This document shows, piece after piece, positions 3,257-59,860 of a DNA stretch of 64,000 nt. The notes beneath the pieces are model-generated. The model ran no database searches. It was given only the letters and a program-made list of their open reading frames with translations, and was not told the origin of the DNA. The position numbers and the translations under genes are program-made. The stretch covers positions 3,906,001 through 3,970,000 of the forward strand of contig NZ_CP007139.1 in the NCBI RefSeq assembly GCF_000724625.1. Reading direction: 5' to 3'. Every line of letters begins with the position of its first letter. Position 1 is the stretch's first letter. The stretch is from Fimbriimonas ginsengisoli Gsoil 348. GTDB taxonomy: Bacteria > Armatimonadota > Fimbriimonadia > Fimbriimonadales > Fimbriimonadaceae.

Positions 3257-4041
3257 TTGCCCCTCTCCAGCACAACCAAGTAATGCCAGGCTTCCCGCAA
3301 TCGATCCGATGACAATGGAGCGCCGTCGATCTCCATCAGCGACGTCTGCAGGCCGGCGCTACTGGCCAGACGCACAAAGTCGGCGGGGAAGTAGCAGCGG
3401 ATGAACTGGGTGATCCTTAGATCCTCCAGCCGGCGGCCGTCCTCATCGCTGAGAGGGCACCACTCGTCTTGGGCCACGGCCGTAATTGGATCGAACCACA
3501 TGCGCCGATTCTGCCGGTAGGCATGGGTCGAGTGATTTCGATCCAGCGTTTGGTCGCGGCCGTGCGCGGCCGCCCAGGGTAGGGGGCAGAAAATGTCGAG
3601 AATCGCGATTCCGCCGGGCGCGAGCCAGTCGTTGGCGATTCGGTGAAGAAGGCGTAGATTGTCTTCGTCGTCTCCGATGCCGAATCCGTCCCAGCAGGCG
3701 ACGACGTCAAACCGTTGCCCGAGGTCGACGGTGTGTTGATCTTCCGCCACTACCGTCAGGCGGCCGGGAGCCGCCTGATTGACGAGACGGCGGGCGTTCT
3801 CGGACTGGATGGGCGCGAAGTCCAGCGCGGTCACGTCGTAACCGGCTTGGGCGGTTGCCAAGGCGGCGCCTCCGTGGCCGCTCTGGATCTCCAGGACGGC
3901 GCGCCGGTCCGGGCCGGCCAAGCGGGCGATGGTCTGCGCTCGCTTGCGGCCCGATTCGGCGTTTTCTTCGCCGCTCCAGAACGAGCCACCGGTCGTGTAG
4001 TACGCCTTCGCCCATTCGGAGTTTTTTGGAGGGGCGATCAT
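3253..4041 (-). CDS. Class I SAM-dependent methyltransferase
   Basis: The 262-residue protein has a Rossmann methyltransferase core. Motif I is VLEIQSGHGGAALATAQAG (about residues 50-68), where GxGxG is degenerate (SGHGGA). It is followed by the acidic strand VTALDFAP and a post-motif-II strand VVACWDGFGIGDDEDN. The C-terminal part has RCYFPADFVRLASSAGL, as in small-molecule methyltransferases. The substrate is unknown. The start overlaps the ABC transporter stop by 4 bp (ATGA), and its own stop overlaps the GNAT start by 4 bp. Methyltransferase plus acetyltransferase plus exporter suggests modification and export of a compound; that is inference. Confidence 0.88.
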   Translation of the reverse strand: MIAPPKNSEWAKAYYTTGGSFWSGEENAESGRKRAQTIARLAGPDRRAVLEIQSGHGGAALATAQAGYDVTALDFAPIQSENARRLVNQAAPGRLTVVAEDQHTVDLGQRFDVVACWDGFGIGDDEDNLRLLHRIANDWLAPGGIAILDIFCPLPWAAAHGRDQTLDRNHSTHAYRQNRRMWFDPITAVAQDEWCPLSDEDGRRLEDLRITQFIRCYFPADFVRLASSAGLQTSLMEIDGAPLSSDRLREAWHYLVVLERGK

Positions 4042-44613: not shown

Positions 44614-46964
44614 GTGGCATCGCGTTCTCGCGCTCGCAGCCGACGCTCCCCGTGGATCCGGCGAATCAAGTTGGCGATCGCATTTCTGGCGATTGTCTTC
44701 TTCGGCGCCTTTATCACCCTCTTCGTGATGTTCTTCTCGGCCATCAAAGAGGCCGAGGCGCAAGCCGGAACGATCGAGGAAAAGTTTGTCGAGGTGGCTA
44801 GGCCCCCGACGCGCATCCTTACCGCCGACGGGGTCGAGCTCTATCGGGTCAGCGAAGAAAACCGGATTCCCTTAAAGTTGGCGGAAATTCCGGACCACGT
44901 CAAGAACGCGATCATCGCCGCCGAGGACAAGCGGTTCTATCAGCACAACGGCGTGGATGAGCAAAGCCTTCTCCGGGCGTTCGTCTCGGTGTTCAAGCAA
45001 GGTCACGTTGGGCAGGGTGGCAGCACGCTCACGATGCAGCTCGCCAAGCGTCTCTACAACGGCAATGAAAAGTCGTTCCGCCGGAAATTGCAAGACATCG
45101 CCTTCGCCTACGTGATGGAGCGAGAGGTGGCCAGCAAGAACCGGATTCTCGAGCTGTACCTAAACCAGGTCTATTTCGGGGAGGGGGCGCATGGGATCGG
45201 CGCGGCGGCGCGGACCTATCTGAGCAAGAACGTCAAGGACCTGACGATTTCCGATGCGGCGTTGCTGGCCCGGTGTGTCCGAAGTCCGAGCCGAGAAAAC
45301 CCGATCAAAGATCCTAAAGGGTCGCTGGAGAACCGGGACGTCGTGCTGCACATCATGCACGACGAGCACATGATCACCGACTCCGAGTACGACAAGGCGC
45401 TCGCGGAGGTGCCCAAGCTCAATCCGCACCCTCCGGAAACCACGGCTGCCTATTCCGCCGGGTATGCGATGCACTTTGTGCAGCACGTGTTGCAGACCCT
45501 GCAAGAAGACGATCCAACCTTGGACCTGAAGGGGGGCGGCTACACGATTTATACAACCATCGACAGCCACCTCCAGCGCCTGGCGGAGAAAACCGTACAG
45601 AGGATCGTCGAAGAAAACCGCCGCATGAAAATCAATCAGGGCGCGTTCATGGCGATGGATCGCGATGGGCACATTCTCTGCGAGGTCGGAGGCGTCTCTT
45701 ACAAGCGCACTCAGTACAACATCATCTCCCAGGGGCACCTCCAGCCCGGTTCGGGCTTCAAGCCCTTCGTCTATGCCACCGCCCTCCGTGAGGGGACGAT
45801 TGGAATGGGGGATTATCTTTCCAACGCGCCGATTCGACTGCCGAACGGTTCTGGTGGCTATTGGGAACCGAAGAATTCTAGCCCCAGGGAAAACGCTTCC
45901 GGATACTCTCTCGAAGACGCCCTCGCCCTATCGGTAAACCGTCCGGCTATCTGGACGATCCTCAAGGTGACGCCGCGGGTGGTCGCGGATACGGCTCGCG
46001 ACGCTTTCGGTTTCCGGACCAAGCTCGAAGCGTATCCACCGCTCGCATTAGGCGCCACTGCGGTAAGCCCGCTGGAAATGGCGGAAGGGTATTCCACGTT
46101 TATGCTGAGGGGCGATCGAGTGCGCCCCTACCCGCTCGCCAAGATCGTAGGGCCGGATGGAGAGGTCAAGAAGGAATACACGCCGCAGAAATTCGGAGGA
46201 GTGTTCGACCCGCGTGTCTGCGAGGATATCGACACGCTCCTCCGAGCAGTGGTCCAAAAGGGTACCGGCACGGCCGCCCAGGACGTACCGGACGCTCGCG
46301 GGAAAACGGGAACTACCAACGATGCCAAGGACGCTTGGTTTACGGGCTATTCCGACGGCGTTCTCGGCGTCGCCTGGGTGGGCAACCAGAAGATCGTGAA
46401 AGGGAAGTGGACGGTGCTTCCGATGGCGGATCGGGTTTTCGGCGGTACAACCGCTATCCACATCTGGCGAGCCGTTATCAAAGAGGCGCGGCAGCGGTAT
46501 GGACATCGAATGGAGCCGGACAACACACCTCCGGTGGCGCAAGACGATACGGTCCCCGCGCTTCACGAAAAGAAGGAGAAGCCGCCCCGCATCACCGACG
46601 CCGACATGCCGGCGGGAACACCGGTAGACGATCCGAACGCTGGAAAGGCGAAGCCTCCCGAGCACACGATTCCTCCGGCACCGGTGGTAAATCCTGCCGC
46701 TCATCCGGACACGATCCAGAACGACCCCGGCTCCGGGGGCGGGGCGGGGGCGGAGACGGGGACCTCGGAACGATCGATGCGGGCAAGGTCGATAAGCCGA
46801 AGTCGAAACCGAAGAGGGAGCGGCACGAGGAAACGGTGTCGGTGGAAGTGTGTGCCGATTCCGGCCTGCTTGCCAATCCGTATTGCCCGGAGACGGTTAC
46901 TCGTACGTTCCCGCGGAGCCAAGCTCCGAAGCGAGTTTGCCGGATTCACCGGCCGGGAGACTAG
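44614..46964 (+). CDS. Class A penicillin-binding protein (PBP1A type), frameshifted near the 3' end
   Basis: After a Lys/Arg-rich cytosolic start and one membrane helix (about 18-43) comes the GT51 transglycosylase domain: AAEDKRFYQHNGVD (E104), GGSTLTMQLAKRLYNG and RKLQDIAFAYVMERE. The transpeptidase domain has QPGSGFKPFVYATAL (SxxK Ser), ALSVNRPA (SxN) and RGKTGTTNDAKDAWF (KTG). It polymerises and cross-links peptidoglycan. The frame running from 44614 ends in an Arg-rich tail and reaches 47010 inside the next gene. The family-typical C-terminus, VEVCADSGLLANPYCPETVTRTFPRS-type, is in the -1 frame and stops at 46964. The break lies within 46725-46775, in a G-rich tract. Sequencing error, mutation or programmed shift are all possible. 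Confidence 0.93.
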
Positions 46965-46967
46965 GCG

Positions 46968-48821
46968 ATGTCGGTTATCCATACCCCGCGCAAACCGGAA
47001 CTGGATCTGAGGATTCTTGCTTTTCCGGCGGTCATGGTGGGGGCGCTCTCGGTGCTTTTTCTTCGGCTCTGGTACTTCCAGGTCGTAGAGGCACCTACGC
47101 TGGTGGAAAAGGCGGAAGCCTCGCGCGTGGTACCGGTGATGAAGCCGGCCCCCCGGGGGCTCATTTTCGACCGGAACGGAGTTCCAATCGCGATCGTCCG
47201 GCCGGAGATCGTCGTCACCGCGATTCCCAACAAGATAAAGGCGAACCCATGGGTTCTCGACCGGGTGGCCAAGATCCTCGGCGTCGAGGTGGAGAAGCTC
47301 GAGCGGAAGGTAAGGGATGCAACCTGGCGTCCCTTCTTGCCTACCCCAATCTACGTGGGGGCGGACATCAAGGCGGGTACCCGCATCGCGGAAGAAGGGG
47401 AAGAGCTGCCGGGGATCGGTGTGGAAACCCAGCCGATGCGTCACTATCCGGATAGCACGAGCTTTACTCATGTGCTGGGCTACGTTTGGGTTCCCAGCGA
47501 TAAGGACGTGGCCCGAATCGAGAAATCGGGCAAACCGGTTCCAGATTTCGTCGGCAAGGGTGGAATCGAACGTGCCTATGACGACGAGCTGATGGGGTTG
47601 CCGGGCGCTGAGCGGATGGCGATCGATGCGCGGCGGCAACCGATCCGAGTAGAGGGGCGGGATGCGGCTACCCCGGGGAACCAGCTTGTGTTGACCCTGG
47701 ATGGGGATCTACAGCGTTACGTGACCCAGCTCTTCAAGGAGAGCCACTTCATGGGGGGTGCGGTGGCGCTCGATCCCCGCACGGGCGAGGTCCTTTGTTT
47801 GGTAAGCAGCCCCACGTTCGACCAGTCGCTTTTCAGCGGTGGAATCTCGGACGAAGAGTGGAAGGTGCTCAACGATAATCCGGAGAAGCCCCAGATCGAC
47901 CGAGCGATCTTCGGCGCCTATGCCCCGGGGTCGACGTTCAAAATCGTGACGACGGTCGCCGCCGCCCGTACCGGCAAGTTCAACGTGAACGACACGTACT
48001 ACTGCCCGGGAGGGTATTTCAAGCGGGGCGTGCACCTGAGATGCCTAGGGCAACATGGGGCGATCTCGTTTGAAAACGCGATGGCGAAGTCTTGCAACAC
48101 CTATTTCTGCAATTTAGGGGTTGCGGTCGGACCCGAGGCGATTCGGAGCGCAGCCTTGGACATGGGTTTGGGGCAGCGAAGCGGGATTGAGATCGGCGGG
48201 CCGATGGAGGTCGGGACGGTGCCCACCCTCGACTGGCTTCGAAAGGTCTCCAAAAAGAAGAACCCGCCCTGGTATCTGGGCGACACGGCGAACCTATCGA
48301 TCGGACAGGGATATCTCGCGACGACTCCCCTACAAATGGCCGAGGTGGCGGCGATGGTGGCAAACGACGGGGTGAGCTATAAGCCGCATCTCGTTCGCGC
48401 GATCAAGGATCCGACGGGTCAGCAGGCGATTAGGCAGATCGCGCCGGAAGTTGCTCACAAGGTCGATCTCCCCGCCTCGTTCTGGGCCGAGCTGAGGAAA
48501 GCGTTGGTCGGGGTCGTAGACCATGGCACGGCGCAAAGAGCGCGGATTAACGGGGTTTCGTGGGGCGGCAAGACGGGAAGTGCGGAGCACTTGCATGGCG
48601 GAAAGAAAACGCATGGCTGGTTCGTTGGGTTCGCCCCGGCGGAAGCGCCGAAGATCGTGATCTGCGTTCTATGGGAAGAAGGTGGTCACGGCGGCGACTC
48701 CGTGGCTCCGATCGCCAAGGAGATCGTCCAGCGCTACTTGATGCCGCCCAAGAAGGCGGTTTCCGCAGCCACGTCGTCGTCGGCGGCGGCTTTGTCGCCG
48801 GCGGCAAGATCTAAGCCTTGA
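46968..48821 (+). CDS. Class B penicillin-binding protein (PBP2/MrdA type transpeptidase)
   Basis: The 617-residue protein has a short cytosolic start, one membrane helix (ILAFPAVMVGALSVLFLRLW), the PBP dimerisation domain (PRGLIFDRNGVPIAIVRPE, LGVEVEKLERKV, RHYPDSTSFTHVLGYVWVP) and a transpeptidase domain with APGSTFKIVTT (SxxK), KSCNTYF (SxN) and WGGKTGSAEH (KTG). The overall order fits PBP2, the elongation transpeptidase that works with RodA in the periplasm, though no mreC/mreD/rodA are near. It begins 4 bp after the corrected PBP1A stop. Its 3' end overlaps the convergent ligase gene by 88 bp. Confidence 0.93.
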   Translation: MSVIHTPRKPELDLRILAFPAVMVGALSVLFLRLWYFQVVEAPTLVEKAEASRVVPVMKPAPRGLIFDRNGVPIAIVRPEIVVTAIPNKIKANPWVLDRVAKILGVEVEKLERKVRDATWRPFLPTPIYVGADIKAGTRIAEEGEELPGIGVETQPMRHYPDSTSFTHVLGYVWVPSDKDVARIEKSGKPVPDFVGKGGIERAYDDELMGLPGAERMAIDARRQPIRVEGRDAATPGNQLVLTLDGDLQRYVTQLFKESHFMGGAVALDPRTGEVLCLVSSPTFDQSLFSGGISDEEWKVLNDNPEKPQIDRAIFGAYAPGSTFKIVTTVAAARTGKFNVNDTYYCPGGYFKRGVHLRCLGQHGAISFENAMAKSCNTYFCNLGVAVGPEAIRSAALDMGLGQRSGIEIGGPMEVGTVPTLDWLRKVSKKKNPPWYLGDTANLSIGQGYLATTPLQMAEVAAMVANDGVSYKPHLVRAIKDPTGQQAIRQIAPEVAHKVDLPASFWAELRKALVGVVDHGTAQRARINGVSWGGKTGSAEHLHGGKKTHGWFVGFAPAEAPKIVICVLWEEGGHGGDSVAPIAKEIVQRYLMPPKKAVSAATSSSAAALSPAARSKP

Positions 48822-59103: not shown

Positions 59104-59854
59104 ATGGCTCCGCGCCAAGCCCTTCTTGAACGGAACGACCGAATTTGCGCGCTCGGCGTGATCGCCCCGCCGCCGATCCACGTTCAAACGCCTACCTTCG
59201 ATGGCTCGCTCGCGATGCTGTTCGCCTGCGTCCGCGACCACAAGGTCGACCTGATGGAGGTGCCTCTCTTTCCGATCTGTGAGGCTTACTTCACTTACAT
59301 CTTACAGGCAGAGGTGAAAGATCTCGACGAGGCGGCCGCGGCGCTAACCGCGCTCGCCTATCTTTTTGGAGAGGAAGGCGTGGCTGTTGCTCCCGGTTCC
59401 CGATCCGGAGCCGGACTACGAAGAGGCGATGGACCCGGTGGAGCCGACATCGCACGAGTACCGCGCGGCGATCGAAGCGCTTTCGATGTGGCAGCAAGAG
59501 CGCGACCGGCTGTTTTTCCGATCGCCCGACGTGGGACCGGACCCATACGAGCTTCCTTACACTCTTAGCAACGTTTCGCCAACCGATCTGGCTCGGGCGT
59601 TCGAGCGGCTGCTGAAGAAGGCGCAGCCGGAACAGATGGAGCATTTGAGCAAGCCGCGAAAGTCGCTGGCGGATCAGATGGAAGTCGTTTTACTGGCGAT
59701 TTCGTTCGAGTGGCGAAGTTTGGAGCAGCTTGTCGTGGAGCCATTTACACGATCCGACGCGGTCTACTGGTTTTTGGCCCTCCTGGAGTTGATCAGGCTC
59801 GGGCAGGTTCGCGCCCGGCTGAACGAAGACGGCGTGGAGTTCGCGAGAGCGTGA
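59104..59854 (+). CDS. scpA: Segregation and condensation protein A, frameshifted
   Basis: ScpA is the kleisin of the SMC-ScpA-ScpB condensin. The first frame encodes the N-terminal part PTFDGSLAMLFACVRDHKVDLMEVPL...EAAAALTALAYLF. The family-typical continuation ERKAWLLLPVPDPEPDYEEAMDP and the C-terminal winged helix (SLEQLVVEPFTRSDAVYWFLALLELIRLGQVRARL) are in the +1 frame, ending at 59854. The switch is at the T5 run CTTTTTGGAGAGG (59362-59374). Removing one T gives LLERKAWLLLP, the expected sequence. ATG 59104 is a guess for the start; GTG 59158 is possible. scpB follows after 6 bp. Confidence 0.88.
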
Positions 59855-59860
59855 GGCAAC

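Follow-up and report, generated by a model that had tools for sequence, protein, structure and literature searches.

In the soil bacterium Fimbriimonas ginsengisoli (strain Gsoil 348T), the gene for PBP1A, a class A penicillin-binding protein, raises the question of how its product is completed, since in the deposited sequence a conserved C-terminal module follows the body of the protein in another reading frame. A base might be missing from the record, the strain might have lost a base in a recent mutation, or ribosomes or RNA polymerase might change frame at a G-rich site. Most of the evidence points to the first of these possibilities, and we consider it very probable that the frame break in PBP1A is a residual homopolymer error of 454 sequencing and not a special translation signal.

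Results

The PBP1A gene and its frame break

PBP1A is encoded on the forward strand of the window, i.e., the whole stretch of 64,000 nucleotides analysed. Its frame-0 open reading frame (44614-47010) comprises 798 codons for amino acids, and its body (44614..46734) consists of a transmembrane segment, a transglycosylase domain (PF00912, E 7.6e-57), a transpeptidase domain (PF00905, E 4.8e-21) and the start of a disordered linker, the two Pfam domains together identifying a class A PBP. Besides these matches, the body shows homology along its length to other genomes of the family. The last approximately 80 residues of the 798-residue frame are nonsense. The remaining linker and a conserved Cys/His module (CADSG..A...C...C.IH) are encoded at 46762..46964 on the same strand in the -1 frame, as recognized by a profile match and by codon-position bias. 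This conserved tail (CADSGLLANPYC...; CADSGLLANPYCPETVTRTF) ends at a TAG stop codon (46962-46964); an example peptide of the module is VCADSGLLANPYCPETVTR. With a profile of the tails of relatives, the -1-frame module EETVSVEVCADSGLLANPYCPETVTRTF...CRIH obtains 79.8 bits (E 1.1e-24), the joint highest score in the family, and a Pfam search with the C-terminal module alone yielded no family. The next gene codes for a PBP2-type transpeptidase (PF03717 and PF00905; 46968..48821, forward strand), an arrangement found in most relatives.

The original prediction of a body and a conserved C-terminal segment in different frames, the latter in the -1 frame, is borne out, although the gap between the end of the segment and the PBP2-type start codon (ATG, 46968) measures three bases and not four, as had been proposed. 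The four G-runs with which the switch was said to coincide are also present, and an independent frame-switch HMM trained on the genome itself places the switch at 46765, directly after them.

The G-rich tract at the switch

The tract GGGGGCGGGGCGGGGGCGGAGACGGGG (46735..46761, forward strand) lies in the Gly-rich linker and is the place of the frame switch, where a G was probably under-called. Its runs consist of 5 (46735-46739), 4 (46741-46744), 5 (46746-46750) and 4 (46758-46761) G residues, so that the switch occurs at homopolymers of about five bases. Runs of at least five identical bases are found in 8.6% of coding 45-bp windows. Four runs of at least four G separated by loops of 1-7 nt are rare, occurring at 4 places when both strands of 1.2 Mb from the F. 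ginsengisoli genome are counted. Sense-strand G-quadruplex (G4) motifs are present 17 times within intact long open reading frames in 1.2 Mb, which shows that such a motif by itself does not disrupt reading frames here. In none of the 18 same-genus relatives is a G4 motif present in the 240 nt preceding the module.

PBP1A in relatives

The PBP1A body was found in 80 of 84 other genomes of the family. DNA was read for 69 of these relatives, including 18 same-genus genomes, and 62 of the 69 possess the C-terminal module. The module is in the frame of the body in 61 of these 62 (18 of 18 within the genus), and the sole exception is L020 of genome G001, in which an N gap separates the body from the module (about 3400-3770). 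All 61 module-bearing relatives free of an assembly gap therefore encode an intact frame, and the conserved break in relatives that would have favoured recoding was not found among the 69. The frame-broken PBP1A of L020 is an assembly artefact of another kind. An additional scan of genome contigs, mostly from distant relatives, added nothing decisive.

Seven relatives (L018, L023, L146, L156, L158, L171, and L175) have a PBP1A without the Cys/His module. Most of these proteins end in a Pro/Gly/Asp-rich tail instead, which indicates that some lineages have lost the module or substituted another tail for it.

Constraint on the C-terminal module

When the module is compared with those of five close relatives, differences fall on -1-frame codon positions 1, 2, and 3 in numbers of 43, 38, and 126, respectively, a bias which indicates that the -1 frame was kept until very recently. 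Judging from this pattern, the module is under strong constraint at the protein level, so that an old pseudogene can be dismissed. Since the frame has been maintained, a loss long ago is disfavoured, and the explanations to be considered are a sequencing error, a very recent mutation and a species-specific recoding.

Other frame breaks in the record

A second broken gene in the window, scpA (59104..59855, forward strand), is interrupted at a run of five T (59363-59367), 12.6 kb from the break in PBP1A. Its two halves, both of which match ScpA in Pfam weakly and below the curated cut-off, are in one frame in 18 of 18 same-genus copies found, and in most of these 18 the peptide LAYLLERKAW or a close variant reads across the break point. 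The scpA break is probably due to a homopolymer over-call, as the intact copies suggest.

In a test with 40 simulated one-base deletions, the frame-switch HMM detected 34, or 22 with a stricter filter. It was applied by regions to 1.2 Mb of the genome, consisting of 400 kb around the window and a further 800 kb. Under the stricter filter, 6 candidates were obtained in the 400 kb, two of which, PBP1A and scpA, are clear breaks on reading, whereas the other four resemble overlapping genes or genes of a prophage. The further 800 kb contributed one more clear break, beside a run of four C at about 78,999. It affects a lipoprotein-like gene outside the window (L281, G000:C1:78775-79526), the open frame of which has 191 amino acids versus 274 and 297 in two paralogues of the same genome (L282 and L283). 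Other HMM candidates, for example those at 3760038, 2177250, 2196658, and 3967632, resemble adjacent or overlapping genes on translation, and the candidates near 3.98-3.99 Mb resemble prophage genes that overlap; all of them were excluded from the count. When contigs of three same-genus genomes, 398 kb in all, were scanned as controls with the same stricter filter, no break was detected. The contrast between three clear breaks in 1.2 Mb and zero in the 0.4 Mb of controls is statistically modest, and the scan shows, for a small sample, that this record contains conserved genes with breaks linked to homopolymers.

Discussion

An under-called G as the most probable cause

The closed genome of strain Gsoil 348T (5,231,762 bp) was obtained by Roche GS FLX pyrosequencing at about 22x coverage and assembled with Newbler/Phrap, PCR and Sanger sequencing being applied to gaps and low-quality stretches (PMC4072686). 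Its stated accuracy of 99.994% (PMC4072686), taken at face value, corresponds to about 310 residual errors genome-wide and to about 4 expected in a window of 64 kb. For FLX Titanium, an indel error of 0.037 has been reported at a homopolymer length of 5, in comparison to about 0.001 or less at lengths of 1-4 (PMC3115854). The proposal of a missing G as the simplest cause is thus supported by the 454 origin of the data, the runs of five G, the intact frame in 61 of 61 gap-free module-bearing relatives and the second homopolymer break in the window. Presumably, the tract GGGGGCGGGGCGGGGG was read with one G fewer than it has, and the real gene would most likely be a single ordinary PBP1A reading frame that starts at 44614, includes the module and stops at the TAG (46962-46964). 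From the break, its location, the intact relatives and the sequencing method, we infer that the organism possesses this base and that the record lacks it. On the other side, the contrast with the control contigs is modest, and the seven relatives without the module indicate that its loss is tolerable, so that a true mutation is conceivable.

A genuine recent deletion as an unlikely alternative

Such a mutation would have removed one base from the G-tract in Gsoil 348T itself, so that PBP1A would end in the nonsense tail and lose its module. G-runs are prone to slippage during replication, and the module is dispensable in some lineages, as its absence from 7 of 69 relatives illustrates. However, the F. 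ginsengisoli module shows no decay and is constrained at the protein level in its own frame, and any deletion would therefore have occurred very recently. In addition, in view of the nearby homopolymer break in scpA, a technical cause shared by both genes is the more parsimonious explanation, and we regard a genuine deletion as very unlikely.

Frameshifting or slippage at the G-tract as an unlikely alternative

A similarly small probability is assigned to programmed or spontaneous -1 ribosomal frameshifting, or to transcriptional slippage, possibly aided by an mRNA G-quadruplex, which would give rise to a short and a full-length PBP1A. An RNA G4 located after a slippery heptamer is able to stimulate a -1 shift in the rabbit reticulocyte system and in mammalian cells (PMC3919603), the tract of PBP1A is a strong sense-strand G4 motif, and the direction of the shift fits. 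At 46746-46749 and 46758-46761, a single P-site codon could re-pair on GGG, but these candidate slip codons lie inside the tract itself. No canonical slippery heptamer (X_XXY_YYZ) is present in frame 0 between 46600 and 46770, leaving only such single-codon re-pairing, and the G4 motif consequently is not a stimulatory structure positioned 5-8 nt downstream of a slip heptamer. Furthermore, 17 sense G4 motifs are located in intact long frames, the break is absent from all relatives free of an assembly gap, and the in-frame relatives together with the lack of the G4 motif in all 18 same-genus relatives exclude a conserved recoding signal. Since neither the break nor the G-tract is conserved and a canonical heptamer is lacking, frameshifting at a G-rich structure, the alternative offered in the original prediction, is unsupported. 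A very unlikely reading is a slippage site particular to this species, at which the G-quadruplex-like tract would yield two forms of PBP1A, with and without the Cys/His module, by -1 frameshifting or transcriptional slippage.

Significance and comparison with known systems

In the first complete genome of the class Fimbriimonadia, conserved genes (PBP1A and scpA) are probably broken in frame by homopolymer errors, and apparent gene losses or claims of recoding derived from this record therefore need checking. If recoding were true, the cell-wall gene PBP1A would represent a rare bacterial case of a natural -1 frameshift driven by a G4.

In the known example of G4-stimulated -1 frameshifting, a UUUAAAC heptamer is followed by a G4 a few nucleotides downstream, and about 7% frameshifting is reached in the reticulocyte system (PMC3919603). 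PBP1A shares with it the strong sense-strand G4 motif and the -1 direction, but lacks the canonical slippery heptamer, the spacing and any conservation. The resemblance to 454 homopolymer indel errors (PMC3115854) is closer: the genome is a 454 genome, the one-base break occurs at runs of five identical bases, the gene is intact in relatives and a second such break exists in the window, although in PBP1A the error is deduced and not seen in reads. Compared with the class A PBPs of the Fimbriimonadaceae, PBP1A of F. ginsengisoli has the same domain order, the same C-terminal Cys/His module and, as in most of them, the PBP2 gene directly downstream; besides the G-tract in its linker, seen in F. 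ginsengisoli only, it differs from them in the deposited frame alone.
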